Shown: positions 199-13,782 of the stretch, piece after piece
Layout of the letters: each line of letters begins with the position of its first letter
How positions within the stretch are numbered: position 1 is the stretch's first letter
Assembly: GCA_000525675.1 (NCBI GenBank)
Contig: CP002190.1
Span: 1,240,001 to 1,304,000 of the forward strand
From: Bdellovibrio bacteriovorus W
GTDB lineage: Bacteria; Bdellovibrionota; Bdellovibrionia; Bdellovibrionales; Bdellovibrionaceae
Direction: 5' to 3'
Length of the DNA: 64,000 nt
Program-made: the position numbers and the translations under genes
Notes under the pieces: model-generated
Databases searched by the model: none
Told to the model about the DNA's origin: nothing
Seen by the model: only the letters and a program-made list of their open reading frames with translations

Positions 199-1863
199 GT
201 GATCGACAAATTGAAAGATGAGATGTTATTTATAGTGGGCGCTGTTTTAGTGACAGTGATTTCTCATTTAAGCTTTAGCAACTACTTTAGCAATCAGTCA
301 CTTGGGATGCTTCTTTCTGCCATTTTAGTAGGTTATTCGTTCCGCGCTTTCTTTACGAGACTTTTTTCGCTCCATTTAATGCTTGTTGCCGGGCTTATTT
401 TTTATGGAGTTAGTAATATTAAATATGCCAACATGGGGCGTGTAATTGAAGGGCGGGATTTGCTTTTTTTGGGGCAGGCGACGGATGTTTCTGACTATCT
501 TCCTTGGTTGCACATACTTTTTGCGATAGTTCTTCTTGGTAGTTTAATCTTTCATAAGCCGAAGTTGAAATTGAACTTCCATCTTGTTCCGGTTTTTCTA
601 CTACTTTTGTGCGGCGTCTTTTTCTATTCAAAAAGTACCAAGGTATTCGCCAACACGAATTCTTTTTTACAGCGCTCTGTGAACATCCATTTGGACTTCT
701 GGAGCGCCAAAAGTAATCTAGAAACAAATGGCATCTTTCTGCATCTTTTGCAGACTAGTCCCACATCTATTCTGCCTAAATCAGGCGAGCATAGTTTTTA
801 CGCTAAGAAAGCCACATCAGTTAAGTCGTCAATGGATACACCTGATATCTTTTATGTGATTTGTGAATCTTGTTTTTACAGTGAAGATCCAAACTCACCA
901 TTTCATAACAGTCTGAAAAAGTTAAAAGATCTTGGTCTTTCACACTTTGAAATGGTCTCTCCGACCTATGGGGGTGGGACATCAGAGGCTGAATTTGAGT
1001 TGCTGACGGGGTTGCCGGCAAGTGGATTGGTCGGAATCAAATACCAAGTTTATGGTGGAAGTTTTTCCATGAATAGTAAGACTCTTCCCAAAGAGCTGCT
1101 AACTTCTGGTTATAGAACTTACTTCATGCACAATACGCCGGCTTCACATTGGCGTAGAGATGAGGTTGTTCCTAAGTTTGGGTTTGAAGAGTCTTATTAT
1201 ATCGATTCTATGTCAGACATAGGAAGTGAGCGCTGGGCCCGAGACAAGGCTTTATACAATAAAGCTCTAGAAAAATATAAGGAGGCACTTCAGCAGCCTG
1301 CATCGGAGCCTGTTTTTATGAACTTATTGGCCGTTTATAGTCATGGTGGCTACGATTCTGACGAGCAAATGGGAGTTCTCCATTTTAACAAAAAAATTGA
1401 TGTAGTAGTTAACGACTTTATTGATTTTTATAACGAAATCAATAAGGCTTCCGCGAAAGCACACCGAAAAGCTGTTTTCATCGTGCTTGGCGATCACAAA
1501 CCGTCTTTGTTAGATGCATTTGAGGCCTATGGCGAAATTCCTTTATCCGCAATCCAAGTTGGAGTCAGCGGAATAAAAACCTTGAACAATCAGCTGACGT
1601 CCGAAGAAAAGATAGCTGTTGGTAAAGTGCCTGTTTTTATTAGCGGAAGTTTAAAGGAAATCATAAGCCCAAACACTCTAAGTCTTAAACCGTTTTTCTG
1701 TTTACCGGCCTATATAAATTTGTTATCTATAAATTCGTCAAAGTCTTATTTAGAATCTGTTCGCTTTTACTGTGATGCCGAAAGACCCATCGACATGAAT
1801 GACGATAGTTTTTTACAAAAGATTTTTGTTCAAGAACTTTATTCTGAAAACCTATTTGAGTAG
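199..1863 (+). CDS. LTA synthase-like membrane sulfatase-superfamily phosphotransferase
   Basis: Probable inner-membrane enzyme of the LtaS/OpgB/EptA type. These enzymes transfer phosphoglycerol or phosphoethanolamine from a phospholipid head group to a periplasmic glycan. About five hydrophobic segments fill residues 8-150, followed by an alkaline-phosphatase/sulfatase-fold domain from about residue 210. Visible family features are the early strand with an acidic metal ligand (IFYVICESC), the nucleophile region GGGTSEAEFELLTG with its conserved Thr, and the late metal site VLGDHKPS with the Asp-His pair. The start is GTG at 199, with no better ATG nearby. It heads a plus-strand polysaccharide locus and ends 4 bases before the best start of the next gene. 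The natural reading is phospho-substitution of the surface polymer. The substrate cannot be told from sequence. Confidence 0.8.
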   Translation: MIDKLKDEMLFIVGAVLVTVISHLSFSNYFSNQSLGMLLSAILVGYSFRAFFTRLFSLHLMLVAGLIFYGVSNIKYANMGRVIEGRDLLFLGQATDVSDYLPWLHILFAIVLLGSLIFHKPKLKLNFHLVPVFLLLLCGVFFYSKSTKVFANTNSFLQRSVNIHLDFWSAKSNLETNGIFLHLLQTSPTSILPKSGEHSFYAKKATSVKSSMDTPDIFYVICESCFYSEDPNSPFHNSLKKLKDLGLSHFEMVSPTYGGGTSEAEFELLTGLPASGLVGIKYQVYGGSFSMNSKTLPKELLTSGYRTYFMHNTPASHWRRDEVVPKFGFEESYYIDSMSDIGSERWARDKALYNKALEKYKEALQQPASEPVFMNLLAVYSHGGYDSDEQMGVLHFNKKIDVVVNDFIDFYNEINKASAKAHRKAVFIVLGDHKPSLLDAFEAYGEIPLSAIQVGVSGIKTLNNQLTSEEKIAVGKVPVFISGSLKEIISPNTLSLKPFFCLPAYINLLSINSSKSYLESVRFYCDAERPIDMNDDSFLQKIFVQELYSENLFE

Positions 1864-1867
1864 AAGC

Positions 1868-3145
1868 ATGATCGCAGACGGAGTCTCTTTGGAAAATAAT
1901 CAAAAAGTTATGCCAAAATTTGTTTTATGGTTTTGGCGTTTTAGCTGGGTGATGTTTGGACTGTCTTTTTTTACATCCAAGAGTGGTTTGAGTATCTTCT
2001 CAACGCTATTAATTCTTGTTTCCTTGTTCTATGTAAATTGGAGAGCTTTCTTCAAAGAGAAATGGTTAGTCCTTTTCGCGGCCACGGTTCCTCTCGGGAT
2101 GTTTTTGAATTTATTTTCACTTGGTGGTTGGGAGAGTAGCCTTAAGTTTCTTGGTGCAAATCCTTGGCCTTTGTTGGTCATACCAGGGTTCTATTTGACT
2201 CAGCAAAAGAGGGAGCTTGCTTTTTTCTTGTGGCCCCTATCTGTGAGTCTGATTTTGGCCTTACTCAAGGCCGGAACTGTTTTTTATGTCGATTATGGAT
2301 TGGTTTTCAATTCCAAAACAAGAGTATATAGCTATTTCGATATTGGTCGTTGGGGGCAGTTTTTAAGTATAGCTACAGTTTCATTGTTTGGCTTAAGTTA
2401 TCCTTCTGCGCAAAAAAATAGATGGCTAATGTTGTACTACAGATCTCTATTTGTTCTTTCTTTACTTTTTTTAGTTTTTTCGAATACGCGAGCTCCTTGG
2501 GTAGGTTTTTTTGTCGGAATGATTTTGATTATTATACTGATGAAAAAATATTTAAAAACCATTATTGCAGTGATGTTTATTTGTTCTGTAGTTGTACTTT
2601 CAAATAAAGAAATCTCAGCTCGGGTTGTTTCAATCTTCGAAGTAAAAAGAGATGAAACTGGCGTAATAACTTCGGAAGACACTTCTAATGCTGGGCGCTT
2701 ACATATGTGGAAAGTTGCCTTGGATCGATTTCCGGAAAACCCTTTTTTTGGGACAGGCTTTAAGAACTCAGAGACCTCTTTGATAGATTTTTTGTCTAAA
2801 CAGACGGACAACTATCGTAATACATATACCGGAATTAATTTTAGTTATAATGACGCACATTCAAGTTATTTTCAGTCATTAAACGAAATGGGTCTTATCT
2901 TCTTTATATATTACTGGGGAATCTTGGCGTTTTATTTTATATTTATGATTAGAAAATTTCTGAAAGATAGAAATAGCAATTTTTTGATTTCTGCAGCTGT
3001 GGTGTCGGCTAATATGATTGTTTATATTTTCTATTCTTCTTATTCGTCGTATGAGGTGGCATTACTTTCATTTGGTATGATTGTCGGAAGTGGAACTGCA
3101 ATTAGTCCTTCCCTCCATCGGAATGGCGAGATATTAAGTAATTGA
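1868..3145 (+). CDS. O-antigen ligase / Wzy-type polymerase
   Basis: Integral membrane protein of the Wzy_C (O-antigen ligase) superfamily, with about ten or more hydrophobic segments along its length. A periplasmic loop at roughly residues 245-330 carries the typical pattern GRLHMWKVAL, NPFFGTG and NDAHSSYFQSLNEMG, which is seen in WaaL and Wzy proteins. Such proteins join or polymerise lipid-linked repeat units in the periplasm. The frame is open from an ATG at 1799 inside the previous gene. The ATG at 1868, just after the preceding stop, gives a more normal N-terminus and avoids a 65-base overlap, but the Shine-Dalgarno signal is weak for both. With a flippase next door, a Wzx/Wzy pathway is likely. 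Ligase versus polymerase cannot be decided by eye. Confidence 0.78.
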   Translation: MIADGVSLENNQKVMPKFVLWFWRFSWVMFGLSFFTSKSGLSIFSTLLILVSLFYVNWRAFFKEKWLVLFAATVPLGMFLNLFSLGGWESSLKFLGANPWPLLVIPGFYLTQQKRELAFFLWPLSVSLILALLKAGTVFYVDYGLVFNSKTRVYSYFDIGRWGQFLSIATVSLFGLSYPSAQKNRWLMLYYRSLFVLSLLFLVFSNTRAPWVGFFVGMILIIILMKKYLKTIIAVMFICSVVVLSNKEISARVVSIFEVKRDETGVITSEDTSNAGRLHMWKVALDRFPENPFFGTGFKNSETSLIDFLSKQTDNYRNTYTGINFSYNDAHSSYFQSLNEMGLIFFIYYWGILAFYFIFMIRKFLKDRNSNFLISAAVVSANMIVYIFYSSYSSYEVALLSFGMIVGSGTAISPSLHRNGEILSN

Positions 3146-3213: not shown

Positions 3214-4428
3214 GTGAAGAATAGCTTATGGGGAAATCTTAACTTAGCTATACGCTATGGTTTGTCATTTCTTGCGACTGCTTTTGTTGCCAAAGAATAT
3301 GGCCCTGAAATATTTGGAATCTATCAGTTAGCGATTACATACTTGGGTGTTCTTGATTTAGTCACATTTTTGAATCCACATCATCTCCGCAATTATTTGG
3401 TGCGACACCCAGAGGAAGAGGGAGCAATCGTAACGATCTGGAAATTCCATCACTGGGTCATATCTATCCTAATGTTTTTGAGTGTACTGTACTTTTGGTG
3501 GAAATCTGAATATGCACTCGTATATACAATGTTGGTACTTTCATTTGCTAGGATATTTTCCAGAGTATGGGATTACGCGCAAGTTATTGTAGACGCACGC
3601 TTGAGAAGCGATCTTGTTCAAAAGATTCAAATTGTATCTTTTGGAACATTTAATACTACTCGAATGATTTTGTCCGCTTTAAGAGTCAGTCCTGAGATAC
3701 TCTCATCGGCTTCTATTGTTCAGTCGGCAGTCTTAGTTTGGCATCAAAAGAGAATATTGCGCAATAGTGGTGGAGTAAAAGTTGCCAGAATGTCTTTTGC
3801 ATTATTCTTAAAGTTGGTTAAAGACGGATGGCTTCTTTGTCTAATGGCCTTTCTGGTCGGCATTCAGAGTCGAATTGTTAGTTTGATCCTTGTGGAGCGA
3901 ATGACGGTGTCAGATTATGGTAATTTTCAGTTAATTTTTAGGCTTATTGAACCCGCCATTACAGTTGGAACCGTACTTTTCGGTGTTAATTATACGATCC
4001 TCGCGAATACTTTTGCAAATAACAAAGAAGTTTTTTTAAAGAGATTTTTTAAAGTTTCACTAATTGCGATTTTGGGATCAGTTGGTTGCGCTAGTATTCT
4101 TGCCTTTCTACCAGTGGATTGGTGGATACATATTTTCGGAGAAGCATATAAAGACGGTTTGAATAGCTTATGGATGGGAGCTTTAGTAGTAATTTCGAGT
4201 GCGATCTTTTTGATGAGTGTGCAGGTAGATATTATTACGGGACGTTACATATCGGCATGCTTTAAGAATATTTTTGTGATTGGCAGTTACGGGTTTGTTT
4301 TCTTTTTCTATCTTTCTGAAGCGTCGATCGAAATTGCAATGACTTTATATTCTGTCGTTCCTATATTTGTTGTGTTTCTATTTTTGCCAATAGATGGCGC
4401 TAATCTGAAGCTATTTGTAAAACGGTAA
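3214..4428 (+). CDS. Wzx-like polysaccharide flippase (MOP superfamily)
   Basis: A 404-residue multi-pass membrane protein with hydrophobic helices throughout. The N-terminus (NLAIRYGLSFLATAFVAKEYGPEIFGIYQLA) resembles polysaccharide biosynthesis (Wzx/RfbX) exporters, which flip undecaprenyl-linked repeat units across the inner membrane. It has fewer residues than many Wzx proteins (about 400-480) but the normal organisation. The start is GTG at 3214, 68 bases after the previous stop. The MOP family diverges widely in sequence, so the call rests on topology, the N-terminal pattern and position between a Wzy-like gene and sugar-processing genes. Confidence 0.72.
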   Translation: MKNSLWGNLNLAIRYGLSFLATAFVAKEYGPEIFGIYQLAITYLGVLDLVTFLNPHHLRNYLVRHPEEEGAIVTIWKFHHWVISILMFLSVLYFWWKSEYALVYTMLVLSFARIFSRVWDYAQVIVDARLRSDLVQKIQIVSFGTFNTTRMILSALRVSPEILSSASIVQSAVLVWHQKRILRNSGGVKVARMSFALFLKLVKDGWLLCLMAFLVGIQSRIVSLILVERMTVSDYGNFQLIFRLIEPAITVGTVLFGVNYTILANTFANNKEVFLKRFFKVSLIAILGSVGCASILAFLPVDWWIHIFGEAYKDGLNSLWMGALVVISSAIFLMSVQVDIITGRYISACFKNIFVIGSYGFVFFFYLSEASIEIAMTLYSVVPIFVVFLFLPIDGANLKLFVKR

Positions 4429-4489: not shown

Positions 4490-5461
4490 ATGAACTATAG
4501 AAGTTTTAATGATTTGAGTAATGATATTAGAACGAATTTGTACAAGATAAACTCACAAGATTTTGATCTAATAGTTGGCATACCGAGAAGTGGAATGATT
4601 CCAGCCTATATGCTATCTCTGTATTTGAATTTACATGTAACCGATGTGGCGGGATTTATTAATAATTCAGTTCTAGTAAATGGCACAACTAGAAAAGTCA
4701 AGAATAGGCTGACAACTGCCTGGGATGCAAAAAAAGTATTATTCGTAGACGATAGTATATCCTCGGGAGAGTCGCTGCAAAAAGTACTGAGGGCAATTCC
4801 TGATGAGTTGAGGCATAGAGTTTCCACCTTAGCAATCTACACTGATTCCTCTTTGCGAAGAGATATCGACTTTACATTTGAAGTTGTATCCCACCCTCGG
4901 GCTTTCGAATGGAATATCTTTCATCGACCGTTTAGTTCGTCAATATGCTTTGATATTGATGGCGTTTTGTGCGTGGACCCTACAGATGATGAGAATGATG
5001 ATGGCCCTTTCTATGAAGAATTTTTGATGAATGCAAAACCGCGGTATCTACCAAGCTATAAAATCTTTGCAATCGTCACAAATAGATTAGAAAAGTATCG
5101 CTTGCTTACGGAGGAATGGCTTAATAAGCATGGTATCCAATATGATTATTTAATCATGTCAGAGTATAGAACTGCCGATGAGCGAAGATTGGTGGGTAAT
5201 TACTCTAAAAACAAAGCCAACTTTTATAAGAATTCGAAAGCGATACTTTTTATAGAAAGTGATGTCCGTCAGGCTATGGAGATTGCAGCCCATTCTGGGA
5301 AGCCTGTTTTCTGTACAGATAGTAATAAGATGTATGACTCTAATATTTTTTCGACCACCTTAAAGTCTCCTTCGTATTTAAGCTATAAATTTCGAAAACG
5401 AGTTATGGGTTGGATCCCACCTGCCTGGAAGAGAAGATTAAAGAGAATCTTGGGTAGATAG
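4490..5461 (+). CDS. Phosphoribosyltransferase-HAD phosphatase fusion
   Basis: Two domains in one 323-residue cytoplasmic protein. Residues 1-140 are a type-I phosphoribosyltransferase fold: an early strand with VGIPRSGMIPAYML, then the PRPP-binding signature VLFVDDSISSGES (two Asp followed by a Ser/Gly loop) at about residues 84-96. Residues about 150-285 resemble a HAD-type phosphatase, with the nucleophile motif FDIDGVLC, a Thr-Asn motif (VTNRLEKYR) and a distal acidic motif (FIESDVRQA). The C-terminus is basic (KRRLKRILGR). The gene sits between the flippase and the sugar dehydrogenase in the polysaccharide locus. A PRPP-using transferase joined to a phosphatase fits installation of ribofuranose: transfer of phosphoribose, then removal of the 5-phosphate. 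That role is inferred; a nucleotide-salvage role is the alternative. Confidence 0.75.
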   Translation: MNYRSFNDLSNDIRTNLYKINSQDFDLIVGIPRSGMIPAYMLSLYLNLHVTDVAGFINNSVLVNGTTRKVKNRLTTAWDAKKVLFVDDSISSGESLQKVLRAIPDELRHRVSTLAIYTDSSLRRDIDFTFEVVSHPRAFEWNIFHRPFSSSICFDIDGVLCVDPTDDENDDGPFYEEFLMNAKPRYLPSYKIFAIVTNRLEKYRLLTEEWLNKHGIQYDYLIMSEYRTADERRLVGNYSKNKANFYKNSKAILFIESDVRQAMEIAAHSGKPVFCTDSNKMYDSNIFSTTLKSPSYLSYKFRKRVMGWIPPAWKRRLKRILGR

Positions 5462-5529: not shown

Positions 5530-6819
5530 GTGTTATCAAAGATTTTATCCAAAGAGGCGGTAATTGGAATTATCGGTTTAGGGTATGTAGGACTACCTCT
5601 TGCCTTAAGATTTGCAGAGGTGGGATTCGATGTCTTAGGATTTGATATTGATGAATCGAAGGTTTGTAAGATATCTGATAGTGAAAGTTATATTGAGCAT
5701 ATTTCTTCAAGATCTATTCAGGCAGTTAGTGCTAAATTTCGTGCAACTAGCGAATTTAAGAGGATATCAGAAGTTGATGCGATAATTCTCTGCGTGCCTA
5801 CTCCACTAAATAAGTATCGTGAACCAGATCTTAGTTTTGTGCTGGGGACTATGGCTTCTGTTAAGCCATTTTTTAAACGAGGACAAGTACTGTCTTTGGA
5901 AAGTACTACTTATCCAGGTACCACCGAAGAAGAGTTGAGGCCGGTGATCGAGGCTGCGGGATTGGAGATAGGAAAAGATTTCTACCTTATTTATTCACCA
6001 GAAAGAGAAGATCCAGGGAATCCAGATTTTACAACTCGAACTATTCCTAAAGTTGTAGGAGGAAGTACTTCGTCTTGTTTAGAAGTTGGTATGGCTTTAT
6101 ATGGACAAGTTATAGACAAAGTTGTTGCTGTCAGCTCCACAAGAGCAGCTGAAATGACTAAGCTCTTAGAAAATATTCATAGAGCTGTAAATATAGGACT
6201 TGTAAATGAAATGAAAATTGTTGCTGATAAAATGGGAATTGATATTCATGAAGTAATAGATGCGGCCGCGACGAAACCTTTTGGATTTGTCGCTTATAAA
6301 CCAGGTCCAGGCATAGGTGGGCATTGTATACCAATTGATCCGTTCTACTTGACTTGGAAGGCGCGAGAATACGGTATAGATACGCGATTTATTGAGCTTG
6401 CTGGGCAGGTAAATAGTTCAATGCCTAACTACATTATGAAGAAAATTGCTGTGGCTCTTAATGATAAAGAGAAGTCAGTAAAAGGGTCAAAAGTTTTAGT
6501 TCTCGGTCTCGCATATAAAAAAAATGTAGATGATGTTCGAGAATCTCCGTCAGTCTTTTTAATGGAAAAACTGAGGGAAGATGGTGCTATTTTAAGTTAC
6601 TCAGATCCACATGTTCCACAGTTTCCAAAAATGCGTGAACATTTTTTTGATCTAAATTCGATCTCTCTAGATGAAGATAGTATTAAGTCTTTTGATTGTG
6701 TAGTACTAGCAACTGATCATGATCGATTTGATTACGAATTAATACAGAGAAGTTCTAGTATTTTGATAGATACACGTGGAAAATATAGAGGTTTATATTC
6801 TAATGTAGTTAAGGCATAA
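5530..6819 (+). CDS. UDP-N-acetyl-hexosamine 6-dehydrogenase (WbpA/WecC family)
   Basis: NAD-dependent nucleotide-sugar dehydrogenase that makes a UDP-HexNAc uronic acid for a surface polymer. The N-terminal Rossmann motif is [13 protein letters not shown] (residues about 14-26). The central helix region has [15 protein letters not shown], typical of the WbpA/WbpO group. The catalytic Cys lies in [16 protein letters not shown] (about residues 259-274). The C-terminal UDP-binding domain contains [18 protein letters not shown]. The length of 429 is normal. GTG at 5530 is preceded by GGAGG at 5521-5525, which supports this start. It follows the PRTase-HAD gene and precedes a GT4 gene, all co-directional. 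Whether the product is a GlcNAcA- or ManNAcA-type sugar cannot be told by motif. Confidence 0.88.
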
Positions 6820-6899
6820 ATATTCACTGGAATTTTGTCCTATCGTTTTTGGACTATAGTTTATTTAATTATTTACCAAGCTGTAACTAAGGCTTTTTG

Positions 6900-8123
6900 A
6901 TGTCGAAAAGAAAAACAATTTGGATAGTTAATTTATATGCATCAACTCTTGATACTGGAATTGGAGGTAGATGTTATTACTTTGCAAAGTACTTATCATC
7001 ATTAGGATATAATGTATTTTTATTTTCTAGTTCATATCATCACTTACTAAGGGATGCTCCAGTTGTTCATAGTAAATACAAAGTTGAGAGAGTTGATGGT
7101 TTTAATTATGTATGGATAAAAATGCCATTCTATAAAAACGCTCACAGTAAAATGAGAATATTTAATGAGTTTCTGTTTGGTATGCGTATTCGTAAGCTTT
7201 TTTGCTCAGAGTTTGAAAGGCCAGATACCATATTTTATTCGTCACCGTCAATAATCGCATCTGGGGGAGCTCAGTATCTGGCGAGGAAGTTAAATTCAAA
7301 ATTTGTATTAGATGTCAGAGATCTTTGGCCGTTAACGCTGATTGAAATGGCAGGTTATTCTTTAAAGCATCCTGCTATTCGACTGATGCAGCATATTGAA
7401 ATCAAAGCCTACAAAGCTGCGGACTTTGTAACCTCGAATTGGCCGTATGCGATTGACTATATGGCTACTCAGGGAGTTGCAAGAGAAAAGTTTGCATGGA
7501 TTCCAAACGGTTTTTCACAGGAGGAGTTTGACGATAGTGAAGAACTTTCAAGTGAATTTTTGGAATGCTTTCCGAAGGGCAAATTTATAGTTGGTTATAC
7601 AGGTACTTTAGGAACAGCTAATGCGCTTGATGCAATCATAGATGCTGCAACTTTTTTGAAGAGTAAAGAGGAGATTGCTTTTGTTATCGTAGGAAATGGA
7701 CGGGAAAGACAAGAGCTTCTTTCAAAGATCTCAGAAAGGAAGTTGTCGAATGTTCACTATTTGGGAGGAGTAAGAAAGAAGCAAGTTCCACAAGTTTTAA
7801 AGCTATTTGATATCTGCTACGTCGGTTTTTTGAATATTTCGCTTTATCGCTTTGGTAGTTCTCTTACCAAACTTCCAGAGTATTTTGCTAGTGGGAAACC
7901 AATATTATATGCCAGTAGTTCTCCGTTTCAGCCCGTACGTGACGCAAATGCTGGGGTGACTGTAGAAGCTGAGAACTCTCAAGAGATTGCCAATGGAATT
8001 TTGAAATTATACGGACTTTCTGAGATTGAACGAAAAGAAATGGGTCAGAATGGGGTGCGAGTTGCACATCGTGAGTATGAGTATAGAAGTTTAGCGAAAA
8101 AATTAGAAAGTGTCATTTTTTAA
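6900..8123 (+). CDS. Glycosyltransferase family 4 (WbuB-like)
   Basis: GT-B fold glycosyltransferase, cytoplasmic face. The N-terminal domain carries the glycine-rich acceptor loop (STLDTGIGGRCYYFAKYL), a pattern found in WbuB-type amino-sugar transferases. Further on are WIPNGFS, GYTGTLGTANALDAIIDAA and the nucleotide-sugar-binding EX7E-like region SLTKLPEYFASGKPILYA (residues about 320-340). A TTG immediately before would add one residue; ATG at 6900 is preferred. It is the last intact gene of the plus-strand polysaccharide locus. The base composition is clearly AT-rich, like its neighbours. The donor sugar is unknown; the product of the upstream dehydrogenase is a candidate. Confidence 0.82.
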   Translation: MSKRKTIWIVNLYASTLDTGIGGRCYYFAKYLSSLGYNVFLFSSSYHHLLRDAPVVHSKYKVERVDGFNYVWIKMPFYKNAHSKMRIFNEFLFGMRIRKLFCSEFERPDTIFYSSPSIIASGGAQYLARKLNSKFVLDVRDLWPLTLIEMAGYSLKHPAIRLMQHIEIKAYKAADFVTSNWPYAIDYMATQGVAREKFAWIPNGFSQEEFDDSEELSSEFLECFPKGKFIVGYTGTLGTANALDAIIDAATFLKSKEEIAFVIVGNGRERQELLSKISERKLSNVHYLGGVRKKQVPQVLKLFDICYVGFLNISLYRFGSSLTKLPEYFASGKPILYASSSPFQPVRDANAGVTVEAENSQEIANGILKLYGLSEIERKEMGQNGVRVAHREYEYRSLAKKLESVIF

Positions 8124-8611: not shown

Positions 8612-9364
8612 TTAAAGGTTCACGGACTCCTTGTACTCGACTGGGCTCTTCATGCCAAGCGCTGAGTGCGGAGCAACGTGGTTATAATCGGCAAACCATT
8701 CCGGCAGTAGTTTAAGAACAGTCTCGGCACTATCGCAGTCAGCTTGGTAAACATAATCTCTTTTAATTGTTTTAACGAACGCTTCAGCCATTCCATTCGA
8801 CTCTGGACTGTAGGCCCGAGTGTAGCAACACTGTAAGTTTAAATGTCGCGCTAAAGTTTTTACAGACTTCGCACGATAAATAGAACCGCGATCTGAAAGC
8901 CATTGAACTTCCCGAGGAGCGCGAAGAGAAGCTCCGAATCTTTTCTCGACAGCTTTGACCATTAGCTCTTCAATATCATCCGCAGACAATGGCTCTGCTC
9001 TTGCGACATAAGCAAAAGCTTCACGATCACAACAGTCCAATGCAAATGCCACGAATACTTTGTCACCGTTAAAGCAACGGATCTCCATTCCATCGGAGCA
9101 CCAACGAATATTCGGGAACATAGTCATTATAACACCTGTGTGTTCGCGCTTTTGATCTGGCATTGCTTGAGGCAGGGATAGACCATTCATCTGAATGATC
9201 CTCTGAACCCGCTTGCGATTGATCTTATTGCGCCCTTCATTGCTTCGCTTTCGATTCACCATGGTTGTCACTCGCCGATAACCGTAGGTTGGTCTGATGG
9301 CGATAACAGCTTTAATCTCTTCTAAAATAATTTGATCTTCTGGTTTTTGATAATAGCGGGCCAC
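8612..9364 (-). CDS. IS3-family transposase OrfB (DDE integrase catalytic domain)
   Basis: The retroviral-integrase-type catalytic region contains WCSDGMEI (first Asp), VQWLSDRGSIY (second Asp) and SPESNGMAEAFVKTIKRDY (Glu), followed by YNHVAPHSALGMKSPVEY, typical of the family C-terminus. The N-terminal part, IRPTYGYRRVTTMVNRKR, is the usual HTH_21-like segment. Its reading frame continues upstream without a stop through ALNRYEVTQIAEVFEISRSSLYYEP back to the A-run at 9499-9506. The active protein is therefore probably an OrfAB fusion made by -1 frameshifting rather than initiation at 9364. Confidence 0.9.
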   Translation of the reverse strand: MARYYQKPEDQIILEEIKAVIAIRPTYGYRRVTTMVNRKRSNEGRNKINRKRVQRIIQMNGLSLPQAMPDQKREHTGVIMTMFPNIRWCSDGMEIRCFNGDKVFVAFALDCCDREAFAYVARAEPLSADDIEELMVKAVEKRFGASLRAPREVQWLSDRGSIYRAKSVKTLARHLNLQCCYTRAYSPESNGMAEAFVKTIKRDYVYQADCDSAETVLKLLPEWFADYNHVAPHSALGMKSPVEYKESVNL

Positions 9365-9438
9365 TCCAGCTTCCTCCTGTAGAACTGGTTCATAGTAAAG
9401 TGAACTTCGACTGATCTCGAAGACTTCGGCTATTTGGG

Positions 9439-9816
9439 TTACTTCATACCGATTAAGCGCTTTGACTTCTTTGGCGGTTGAAGTGCTTTTAATAGAGCTT
9501 TTTTTTGAACGATCTCAAGGCCATCTTTTAAGATGTCGTTCTTGATAGCAAGATCACCAACCTTGGCTTTAAGGGTTTGGTTCTCTGTCTTGAGCTTATC
9601 GTTTTCTTCGATGAGCTTTTGAACGTACTCAAGATCTATAGTGGATTCTTCTTTTTTATGGGTCATCTGCCTCTTCCAGTTATACAGAGTGATAGCATGA
9701 ACCCCGTATTTCCTGGCAAGCACTGGAATGGATATTCCTGAAGAATAATGCTCATTGATGATTAATTGCTTCTTTACCTGTGTAAAATGTTTCCGCCTAT
9801 TAGACGTATTTTCCAT
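9439..9816 (-). CDS. IS3-family OrfA (helix-turn-helix, leucine zipper)
   Basis: A 125-residue protein. It has an N-terminal helix-turn-helix of the HTH_Tnp_1 type (SSGISIPVLARKYGVHAITLYNWKR) that binds the element ends. A heptad-repeat coiled coil follows at residues 60-100 (IEENDKLKTENQTLKAKVGDLAIKNDIL). It ends shortly after the A8 slippage run. The start ATG at 9816 lies 42 bases inside the right inverted repeat end. Confidence 0.88.
   Translation of the reverse strand: MENTSNRRKHFTQVKKQLIINEHYSSGISIPVLARKYGVHAITLYNWKRQMTHKKEESTIDLEYVQKLIEENDKLKTENQTLKAKVGDLAIKNDILKDGLEIVQKKALLKALQPPKKSKRLIGMK
9499..9507 (-). other. Programmed -1 frameshift site (A8 run) of the IS3 element
   Basis: On the minus strand, orfA reads GTT CAA AAA AAA GCT. 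Slipping back one base at the run of eight A gives a frame that stays open all the way into orfB. A-runs of this form are the known slippery sequence of many IS3-family elements. Confidence 0.6.
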
Positions 9817-10206: not shown

Positions 10207-13200
10207 ATGTCGAGTACATTGTCTGCGAAGCTAACGTTCTATCGTGATCTACTTTTAAATTTCTCAAAAAGAAATAAAGAACTGTATTATCGTCCTTCAA
10301 AAAATGCCCTTCTATTACGCCGATTGGATATAAAGTCTGAAGACATAAATAAATTCTTTCAAGAAGGTGCAAATCTCAAAAAGCTCTTAAGCGATGAACA
10401 ATTGAGTAAAACTGATTGGCATAAGAAAGCAAAGAAACTGAAGTCCGAGGATGACAACTTTCAAAAAGAGTACGGTGTCAGTGGGGGATGGCTATTGGGG
10501 CCAATTCTTGTATGGCGAATAAAAGATGACCCAGAGATTCTTGTTTCGCCTATATTTAAAGTTCCGGTAGACCTTGAGAAAAGTCGAGATTCATTTCAAC
10601 TGATCACCGAAGATGATAGTTTGATCATTAATCCAAGCTTAGAGCTTTTATTAACCAAAAAGCTTGGCTGTGATTTTAAAACAAAGTGTGAAGAAGGTGT
10701 TTTAGCTTCGTTGGAGTTCTTTATAAGTGAACTCAAAAAAAGTGGACGAAATGTCACTATCGACAACTCTGTTTTAGATATATTGCGTATTCCACCAAAA
10801 ACAAAATCTGTAGAGGATGATGACGGCAATCCCAAAAGAGTCCCCTTGGATCCTAGGGAGTATCTAACAGAATCTGAATTCAACATATTTCAGAGTGTCA
10901 CGGATGTGGACTTCGTTATTCAGCCCCACTTTATAGTGGACACTCTTGATAGTTCGAAACTCACTTTGTATGAAGATTATAACGACATTTTGGATAACCC
11001 AAAGAATCCTCTTATAAAGAGTCTTCTTGAGCCTGGTGAAATTCAACGTCTTAGATGGCAATGCGTGGAAGATGTTGATAATGAAGCCGAAGATACCAAT
11101 CGCTTTGTTGTTGATATCGACTCAACTCAACACCTTGCAATACGAAATGCAGCTTGTCTGCAGGGAATCGTGATCAATGGCCCGCCCGGAACAGGGAAAA
11201 GCCAAACGATCACGAATCTGATTTCTCAGCTTCTCTCAGAGGGAAAAAAAGTTCTTTTTGTAGCAGAGAAAAGAGTGGCTTTGGATGTAGTGAATGCACG
11301 ACTTATAAGAGCAAATTTGGAAAAGGAAGTGGTAGTTCTGCATACAGGCGCAGGCGACAGGCAGACCCTTTATAAGTCATTTGTGAACTCAGCAGCTAGT
11401 CAATCGAATGCAAGAGCCATAGAAAAATGGAATGAAGTTTCTAAGCGATTAGATCAATATAAAACCAATGTAAAAGAATATAAACGCCTAATTTCCAAAG
11501 AAGTTGAATTGCTTAAGATGAGTTTTGAGGAACTTGCGGGATTCGAATCAATAAGACGGTACGCACGCGGTACAAAGGATGAATATTCCCGGCTTGTTGA
11601 AATAGATAGATCATCTTTGGAGAAGCTAGCGCACCACTTAGAAGACCTTCAGGCACTTTGCCAGAATAACCCCCACATGCTGACATCTCCTTGGAGGGGT
11701 AGGACGTCGGATTTGAATTACAGTTCGAAGACTAAGGATGAACTCGTAGATGATTCTAAACGATCTACCGATCTTGTTCATAAAATTGAAAAGCTTACCT
11801 CAGATCTTCACCTTTTAAAAAACTCTCCTGTTTGGAGTAGGTTTATTTCGTTTTTTAAAATGAAGAATTTAGAAAACGAAATCGCAAATTCAAAGTTGGT
11901 TTTAACAAAAAACATTGATAAATGGACTAAGTTAGGAGCGTCCTTGAGAGGACCAAGTGAGTCGATTCCATCTTGGTTTGAAAGCCTTGTTACACGATTC
12001 GAAGATTTGAAGAGTGTGATTAAATTTCAGGAGATATGTAGTAATATCGATCGCGAGGTTGGAATAGCATCATTTGGACTATTTCTGAGTGAGTCTCTGA
12101 AGCTTTCTTCAAGTTGGTTGACTGAGTTAGAAGGGCGATGGGCGGATGCATGGATTCAGGAGCTACTAGATAGACACTCTGAACTTCAGCAGTTTGATTC
12201 CAAAGATTTTGAAACAAGGATCCGACGCTTAAAAGAGCAGTATTTTTTACATCAAGCAGCCGCTAAAGAAGTTGTGCCGCATCTGATTTTAGGTAAAAGA
12301 AAGATCGAAGATATAAAGTCTACATCAATACAAATGCTCGCTAGAGAAGCTGACAAGAAAAGACGAGTAAAATCGCCCAGAGAGTTAATGAATGATGGCG
12401 CACTATCGACGATGTTAGAACTTAAGAGATGTTGGCTCATGTCGCCCTTAAGTGTAGCGCAAAGTCTACCTAACATCGAAGGAATGTTTGACGTTGTTAT
12501 TTTCGATGAGGCAAGTCAAATTCGTATCGAGGATGCCATACCAGCAGTCAATAGAGCAAAGTCTTTAATTGTTGTAGGTGATAGTAAGCAAATGCCACCA
12601 ACGAATTTTTTCGGCGGGTCTTTTGATGAAGACGATGACGAAGAAAATGACATGGAACCACCTGAGAGCCTATTGGAGCAAGCCTCAAGAGGGTTTGAGA
12701 GCATTACTCTACGAAGTCATTATCGAAGTCAGGATGAATCTCTTATAGCGTTCTCAAATTATGCGTTCTATGGTTCAAATTTGGTAGCGGCGCCTAGTCA
12801 CAATGTCTTTGGAGCTGGTGAGGCAATAAGTTTTAATAGAATCGAAAATGCCTACTTCAATTCGAAGAAAGGAAATATCACAGAGGCACAAGCTGTGGTC
12901 GCAAAAGTAGCGCAGATTCTCAAAGTAAATCCGCATGCGAGTGTTGGTGTGATATCAATGGGTGTTTCTCAACAGAAAGCTATTGAAAATGAGTTGGACT
13001 TGCTTGCTGAATCCGACAAGGATTTTGAAAGGGTCTACAACGAATCTCTTGCGTACCAAGTAGAAGGGGCGTTTGCAGGTTTCTTCAATAAGAATTTAGA
13101 AAATGTCCAGGGCGACGAGCGTGACATTATTATCATGTCCGTTGGGTATGCTCCAGCGAAGCCGAATGCGGCTCTTCGCAAAGCATTTGGTCCGTTGTCC

Positions 13201-13782
13201 TACAAAGGAGGTGGAAGGCGATTGAATGTTGCAGCGTCTAGGGCAAGGCGACAGTTGCATCTATTCTGCTCTTTTGATCCATTTTGTTTGGAAGTTGATC
13301 AAATGGCCTATGAACGCAATCCTGAAACAACGACATTTGCGCGATTTCTCCATTACGTGGCATTAGTTTCAGAAAAGTCCACAAATGAGGCTCGCCAAGT
13401 CTTACAAACATTCGAAAGTGCCGAATCTATAAGCTCGAGCGAAAGTCGTAAAGGGTTGGCAGTCAGTATTGCGGAGCGACTGTCTGAACTTGGATATTCA
13501 ACTGATATGAATGTAGGGGATTGTGGTTTCAAAATCGATCTTGCCGTAAGAGACAGAGAGAACTCCAATCGCTATCTGCTTGCTATCGAGATCGACGGAG
13601 GTGCCCATGTTTCGGCGGGCTACAGTCGGGATCGAGATCGGGCTCGATTGGAGTTATTAAAGGCGAAGGGCTGGAGTGTTTATAATGTTTGGACGCAAGA
13701 TTGGCTGAGAGATCGCGATCGGGTTATATCCGCTATCGAAGAGGAAATTAAAACAGTTAGTGGTCGTCGCGTTGCTTCATAA
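10207..13782 (+). CDS. DUF4011-SF1 helicase-Vsr/MTES-type nuclease (probable defence protein)
   Basis: A 1191-residue protein. The N-terminus (residues 1-90, FSKRNKELYYRPSKNALLLRRLD) matches the DUF4011 type found at the front of Upf1-like superfamily-1 helicases. Walker A is INGPPGTGKSQTITNL (about residues 322-337). A coiled-coil-rich insertion spans about 400-730. Walker B is VIFDEASQIRIEDAIP (about 765-780), then GDSKQMPPTNFF, LRSHYRSQDESLI, a VQGDERDIIIMSVG motif and RRLNVAASRARRQL, covering helicase motifs III-VI. The C-terminal 110 residues are a Vsr-like/DUF559-type endonuclease, with a remote strand plus IEIDGGAHVSAGYSRDRDR and a GWSVYNVWTQDW end. This DUF4011-helicase-Vsr order is known from single-gene antiphage systems (named hhe, to my recollection). 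It stands alone beside an IS element. ATG at 10207 has AGGGA six bases upstream. Confidence 0.82.
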   Translation: MSSTLSAKLTFYRDLLLNFSKRNKELYYRPSKNALLLRRLDIKSEDINKFFQEGANLKKLLSDEQLSKTDWHKKAKKLKSEDDNFQKEYGVSGGWLLGPILVWRIKDDPEILVSPIFKVPVDLEKSRDSFQLITEDDSLIINPSLELLLTKKLGCDFKTKCEEGVLASLEFFISELKKSGRNVTIDNSVLDILRIPPKTKSVEDDDGNPKRVPLDPREYLTESEFNIFQSVTDVDFVIQPHFIVDTLDSSKLTLYEDYNDILDNPKNPLIKSLLEPGEIQRLRWQCVEDVDNEAEDTNRFVVDIDSTQHLAIRNAACLQGIVINGPPGTGKSQTITNLISQLLSEGKKVLFVAEKRVALDVVNARLIRANLEKEVVVLHTGAGDRQTLYKSFVNSAASQSNARAIEKWNEVSKRLDQYKTNVKEYKRLISKEVELLKMSFEELAGFESIRRYARGTKDEYSRLVEIDRSSLEKLAHHLEDLQALCQNNPHMLTSPWRGRTSDLNYSSKTKDELVDDSKRSTDLVHKIEKLTSDLHLLKNSPVWSRFISFFKMKNLENEIANSKLVLTKNIDKWTKLGASLRGPSESIPSWFESLVTRFEDLKSVIKFQEICSNIDREVGIASFGLFLSESLKLSSSWLTELEGRWADAWIQELLDRHSELQQFDSKDFETRIRRLKEQYFLHQAAAKEVVPHLILGKRKIEDIKSTSIQMLAREADKKRRVKSPRELMNDGALSTMLELKRCWLMSPLSVAQSLPNIEGMFDVVIFDEASQIRIEDAIPAVNRAKSLIVVGDSKQMPPTNFFGGSFDEDDDEENDMEPPESLLEQASRGFESITLRSHYRSQDESLIAFSNYAFYGSNLVAAPSHNVFGAGEAISFNRIENAYFNSKKGNITEAQAVVAKVAQILKVNPHASVGVISMGVSQQKAIENELDLLAESDKDFERVYNESLAYQVEGAFAGFFNKNLENVQGDERDIIIMSVGYAPAKPNAALRKAFGPLSYKGGGRRLNVAASRARRQLHLFCSFDPFCLEVDQMAYERNPETTTFARFLHYVALVSEKSTNEARQVLQTFESAESISSSESRKGLAVSIAERLSELGYSTDMNVGDCGFKIDLAVRDRENSNRYLLAIEIDGGAHVSAGYSRDRDRARLELLKAKGWSVYNVWTQDWLRDRDRVISAIEEEIKTVSGRRVAS

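Follow-up and report, generated by a model that had tools for sequence, protein, structure and literature searches.

PRPP-dependent ribofuranosyltransferases of the bipartite gPRT-PRP type have been described in the O-antigen systems of K. pneumoniae, where they are represented by O4 ORF5 and O7 ORF7 (PMC11231755). Bcs3 of H. influenzae b (CrpP-CriT) carries a HAD phosphatase and a PRT-fold transferase in one polypeptide (PMC10299916), and C. jejuni Cj1432 is also a bipartite PRT/phosphatase enzyme (PMC12096443). In both of these proteins, the phosphatase precedes the transferase (PMC10299916; PMC12096443). The CriT portion of Bcs3 contains helical bundles and splits the function of the DD motif over two loops (D680/E818), and the CrpP portion has a cap domain (PMC10299916). 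C. youngae O1 ORF15 is a HAD-UbiA polyprenyl phosphoribose synthase, which makes the lipid-linked donor for alpha-Ribf (PMC11127046). Because the Klebsiella O4/O7 enzymes, Bcs3 and Cj1432 are already bipartite, the fusion of PRT and HAD domains for ribofuranose transfer is known and is not a new concept.

The gene considered here, called PRT-HAD after its two domains, lies in a window of 64,000 nucleotides (the whole stretch of DNA that was analysed) from B. bacteriovorus W. An initial annotation had described a PRPP-binding domain followed by a HAD domain in one polypeptide, encoded between a flippase and a sugar dehydrogenase, and had proposed a single-protein ribofuranose installer. The position it gave is borne out by the plus-strand run of genes surrounding PRT-HAD:

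199 to 1863, plus strand: sulfatase/LTA-synthase-like membrane protein, with which the run begins in the window (PF00884; weak LtaS match)
1799 to 3145, plus strand: Wzy_C/O-antigen ligase-polymerase family protein (PF04932)
3214 to 4428, plus strand: flippase-like (Wzx-like) membrane protein (assigned by length, topology, sequence and position)
4490 to 5461, plus strand: PRT-HAD gene, ATG start, 323 aa (ORF call, PF00156 and homologues)
5530 to 6819, plus strand: nucleotide-sugar (UDP-sugar) dehydrogenase (TIGR03026, E 1e-127)
6897 to 8123, plus strand: GT4-type glycosyltransferase (PF00534, PF13692)

Judged by its gene content, this run is a Wzx/Wzy polysaccharide locus, and an initiating phosphoglycosyltransferase is encoded elsewhere in the same genome. 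The flippase-like protein has no Pfam or NCBIfam match and shows very weak similarity to the Wzx of O169. Promoter and terminator scans returned nothing above chance. PRT-HAD is present as one copy in the 3.0-Mb single-contig genome of B. bacteriovorus W. Full-length homologues with 32-50% identity occur in other phyla, and the open reading frame is therefore not a chance frame. No homologue was found in any of the 59 other relatives searched, nor in any other sampled genome of the phylum; PRT-HAD therefore probably arrived together with the polysaccharide locus.

Several neighbouring genes merit mention in their own right. An IS3-type transposase gene pair, identified by sequence (8612-9816, minus strand), closes the polysaccharide gene run, and this insertion may have truncated the locus. 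A gene at 10207-13782 (plus strand) encodes a 1191-aa helicase whose C-terminal domain is an MTES_1575 nuclease and which strongly matches the PADLOC PDC-S37 and Hhe models; it is likely a defence gene adjoining the polysaccharide locus. A ThiF/E1-like protein adjoins an alpha/beta hydrolase (L012:10377-11964, minus strand), a pair that possibly belongs to a small-metabolite pathway. A HAD-UbiA protein of the PRK08238 family, decaprenyl-phosphate phosphoribosyltransferase-like, is encoded some 2.5 kb before the start of the window (L012:14129-15550, minus strand; G000:C1:1236129-1237550) and adjoins a putative GT-C protein. HAD-UbiA scored above the family cut-off in nine of 40 searched genomes, which all belong to one genus. 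The HAD-UbiA and GT-C pair could represent a second, lipid-linked ribofuranose route.

The N-terminal part of PRT-HAD matches the Pfam family PF00156 (Pribosyltran) over residues 11-149 (E 9e-13), and the following features were located in it:

4490 to 4939, plus strand: PRT domain (residues 1-150) with a type I fold most like that of 6-oxopurine PRTs
4577 to 4597, plus strand: PPi loop GIPRSGM, residues 30-36
4736 to 4774, plus strand: PRPP loop VLFVDDSISSGES, residues 83-95
4895 to 4927, plus strand: rebuilt acceptor region PRAFEWNIFHR, residues 136-146 (conservation and alignments)

Among the matches listed, the nearest solved structures are S. solfataricus HGXPRT (5bqo/4z1o), H. pylori XGHPRT and E. 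coli XGPRT (1a95). Because these nearest structures are 6-oxopurine PRTs, base-recognition residues were compared across the homologues, the purine-PRT residues being identified from alignments and established knowledge of HGPRT and XGPRT. P32, R33, S34, G35 and D88 are kept in all 33 PRT-intact sequences, and D87 is kept in 32 of them. Residue 91, the catalytic Asp of purine PRTs, is Ser in PRT-HAD and varies among Ser, Met, Asn, Ile, Leu and others across the same set (Asp in 1/33). Position 119, corresponding to the Lys that contacts the purine O6 in 6-oxopurine PRTs, is never Lys (0/33), and position 136 is invariably Pro (33/33), which replaces the base-stacking aromatic of purine PRTs. 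In the adjoining acceptor region, R137 occurs in 31 and W141 in all 33 sequences. From this residue pattern, the PRT domain is predicted to have kept PRPP binding and lost nucleobase chemistry throughout the family. The initial annotation had held that close similarity to nucleotide-salvage PRTases would speak against a glycan function. The fold is indeed closest to HGXPRT and XGPRT; since the base-specificity residues are gone, this likeness does not refute such a function.

The remainder of the protein comprises a HAD phosphatase domain and a basic tail:

4940 to 5341, plus strand: HAD phosphatase domain, residues 151-284, modelled without a separate cap (profile, fold and model)
4943 to 4975, plus strand: HAD motif I ICFDIDGVLCV, with nucleophile D155 and acid/base D157 (CFDIDGVLC being residues 153-161)
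5072 to 5104, plus strand: HAD motif II IVTNRLEKYRL (T197)
5213 to 5215, plus strand: HAD motif III, Lys242
5243 to 5275, plus strand: HAD motif IV region ILFIESDVRQA (E256)
5354 to 5458, plus strand: basic C-terminal tail, last 35 residues, net charge +11

D155 and D157 are invariant in the 28 HAD-intact rows, as are T197, K242 and E256. The HAD part has no Pfam match; its model (143 residues, pLDDT 91, pTM 0.85) is a compact alpha/beta domain with no cap, and its best PDB match is the phosphatase domain of Pnkp1, with a profile E of 0.001 and a fold E of 0.004, the latter weak when taken alone. With the PF00156 match, HAD motifs I-IV and a confident HAD model, the architecture given in the initial annotation is confirmed. 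The charge of the C-terminal tail ranged from +4 to +13 in all 22 homologues tested, which is in keeping with a membrane-proximal substrate.

Several genomes carry two PRT-HAD copies, and in some of these one domain has decayed, a domain being called dead from its motifs. In a Salipaludibacillus genome (G062) with tandem copies, copy one retains an intact PRT domain but has CINIEGVLC as HAD motif I, whereas copy two retains an intact HAD domain but carries GVSEAGM and VEDTNDSG in its PRT domain. The same opposite defects are found in the two copies of another genome (G217), on different contigs, and Rhodobacter CZR27 carries an intact copy with a PRT-dead one nearby. In the Halomonadaceae, a HAD-dead copy (CICLEGM type or similar) is present in seven genomes; six also encode a HAD-intact copy, and the seventh, V. 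zhuhanensis, has one detected copy, which is HAD-dead. Copy counts came from a first-look search, in some runs of which at most five candidates per genome were scored. By these counts, more than one copy is present in nine of the ten genomes or records that hold a decayed copy, but in none of the 14 that hold just an intact copy (p 8e-6 by Fisher's test, or about 4e-4 on a rough count of lineages). PRT-dead copies fall in three separate places in the tree, with long-branch warnings. This reciprocal decay fits the pattern expected of two sequential catalytic steps in one pathway, and in some lineages the two activities may be divided between two paralogues.

PRT-HAD homologues are scattered, with a patchy occurrence in variable O-antigen and EPS loci. 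Most homologue loci are polysaccharide loci in which Wzx and/or glycosyltransferase genes adjoin PRT-HAD, by a count that leaves out a few GC-rich loci with poor gene calls. Full-length homologues with all motifs are encoded in E. coli O105 (48% identical; eleven records, two inspected) and O183 (46% identical; two records, one inspected), and in both O-antigen loci PRT-HAD is convergent with an adjoining wzx. O105, O183 and the related serogroup O169 probably match Shigella boydii 11, 10 and 6, respectively. The O183 and O169 clusters match at 97% identity on both sides of one segment, which runs from the end of manB to just past wzx; the shared part includes four glycosyltransferases and wzy. 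In O183 this segment holds PRT-HAD and its wzx, whereas in O169 it holds IS remnants, another wzx and a gene for a GT4 glycosyltransferase; PRT-HAD was not found in the O169 locus examined. In O183, PRT-HAD thus takes the position that a conventional glycosyltransferase has in the sister serogroup, which is what one would expect of an enzyme adding the sugar by which the two differ. PRT-HAD and a related wzx are located at the same end of the O183 (L093:13932-16361) and O105 (L094:13935-16387) loci; the two wzx genes are 58% identical, as if the convergent pair had been exchanged as a unit.

Longer family members, of about 430 aa, are encoded on Rhizobium plasmids (L014 and L016, about 9.8-24 kb), between a caspase-domain gene and a glycosyltransferase, with VgrG and further T6SS genes alongside. 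This setting raised the idea of a role in defence or as an effector, which was rejected because the Rhizobium loci also hold the glycosyltransferase and the remaining loci are of the polysaccharide type. Phage and viral collections yielded no PRT-HAD homologue, and for PRT-HAD PADLOC returned no more than weak PRTase matches. No paper on the family was found by a literature search that did not reach Kelly et al. 2022 or reviews of E. coli and Shigella O antigens, where a mention is possible.

The computed domain content, kept and lost residues, reciprocal decay of paralogues, locus context and O183-versus-O169 position point to PRT-HAD as a bifunctional ribofuranosyltransferase that uses PRPP and belongs to a surface-polysaccharide locus (probability about 0.75). 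In the mechanism that we infer, the PRT domain would bind Mg-PRPP via its canonical DD and PPi loops and move ribose-5-phosphate, with inversion, onto a hydroxyl of a cytoplasmic undecaprenyl-linked oligosaccharide; inversion at transfer would give the beta anomer, beta-Ribf-5-P. The HAD domain would then hydrolyse the 5-phosphate, leaving a repeat unit that could be extended or flipped by Wzx, and the basic C-terminal tail may hold the protein at the inner membrane. Ribf is accordingly predicted in the polymer of B. bacteriovorus W. The ribofuranose-installer reading of the initial annotation is the best-supported one, gains strength from the evidence on homologues and is probably right; the suggestion that the novelty lies in the fusion does not stand (PMC11231755; PMC11127046; PMC10299916; PMC12096443). 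Counting against the ribofuranosyltransferase reading are the Rhizobium members' caspase-like/T6SS surroundings and the nearest fold, which, among the matches listed, is a nucleobase PRT and not a known glycan PRT.

That fold, together with weak matches to purine PRT families and the resemblance of the HAD domain to Pnkp1, a nucleic-acid-end phosphatase, would suit a nucleobase PRT coupled to a nucleotidase, which would convert PRPP and a base to a nucleotide and then a nucleoside, either in salvage or on the way to a nucleoside-like metabolite. The family-wide loss of the catalytic Asp, the O6-binding Lys and the stacking aromatic makes this improbable, as do the patchy occurrence in variable O-antigen/EPS loci and the glycosyltransferase position in O183 versus O169. 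Slightly less doubtful, though still unlikely, is the production of another PRPP-derived intermediate, such as a ribosyl donor, free or lipid-linked, or a non-ribose pentofuranose after epimerisation, with no direct transfer to the repeat unit. A HAD-UbiA polyprenyl-phosphoribose synthase, the kind of enzyme that supplies the lipid donor in C. youngae O1 (PMC11127046), is encoded just upstream of the window; on the other hand, PRT-HAD has no membrane-embedded domain, and neither a GT-C gene nor a pentose epimerase accompanies it in the O105/O183 loci.

Some type I PRT domains, such as PurR, PyrR and GfcR, are regulators, and PRT-HAD has weak matches to GfcR and PyrR that might indicate a PRPP sensor or regulator. 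This is very improbable, given that no DNA- or RNA-binding domain was found in the protein, that the catalytic motifs of the HAD domain do not vary where they are kept, and that decay is reciprocal between the domains, as fits two catalytic steps.

Taken with the ribofuranosyltransferase reading, these data make it fairly probable that PRT-HAD represents a second class of PRPP-dependent ribofuranosyltransferase, in which a purine-salvage PRT had its base site rebuilt for a glycan acceptor, gained a capless HAD domain at the other end, and spread among O-antigen and EPS loci, including those of E. coli O105 and O183, sometimes as complementary half-dead paralogues. If so, a function would be assigned to a scattered family annotated as "phosphoribosyltransferase family protein" or "hypothetical protein", and loci with PRPP-derived pentofuranose polymers that the known phosphatase marker may miss would be flagged. 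It would also mean that a fold of nucleotide salvage had been recruited for glycosyl transfer, apparently independently of the known type. Structures have been published for the O antigens of E. coli O105 and O183, and these typed serogroups make the function of PRT-HAD directly testable.

Compared with known systems, PRT-HAD shares the type I fold and the PRPP and PPi loops with 6-oxopurine PRTs. However, the catalytic Asp (DDxxDTG), O6-binding Lys and stacking aromatic of those enzymes are not conserved in its family, and, unlike them, it has a fused HAD domain and resides in polysaccharide loci. Aminoglycoside O-ribosylation by BtrL/BtrP likewise transfers a phosphoribosyl group from PRPP to a sugar hydroxyl before dephosphorylation, but uses separate proteins and a small-molecule acceptor. 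C. youngae O1 ORF15 resembles PRT-HAD in combining use of a PRPP donor with a HAD phosphatase in one O-antigen-locus protein (PMC11127046), yet transfer there is the task of a UbiA domain embedded in the membrane, which bears no relation to the PRT domain, and PRT-HAD has no UbiA match. With the gPRT-PRP type, PRT-HAD has in common a PRPP-binding PRT fold and a HAD domain in one polypeptide, a polysaccharide locus and the same proposed two-step chemistry, for which these enzymes provide the precedent. Judged by their published descriptions, it is set apart from them: the domain order of Bcs3 and Cj1432 is reversed in PRT-HAD, with the PRT domain first (1-150) and the HAD domain second (151-284); in contrast to CriT, it has a contiguous VDDS loop in a compact PRT domain of about 150 residues without helical bundles; and, in contrast to CrpP, its HAD model is capless. 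No known gPRT-PRP protein appeared among the listed matches of PDB sequence searches or in the top Foldseek lists. PRT-HAD thus most likely works like the gPRT-PRP enzymes but does not share those of their architectural features that were tested.
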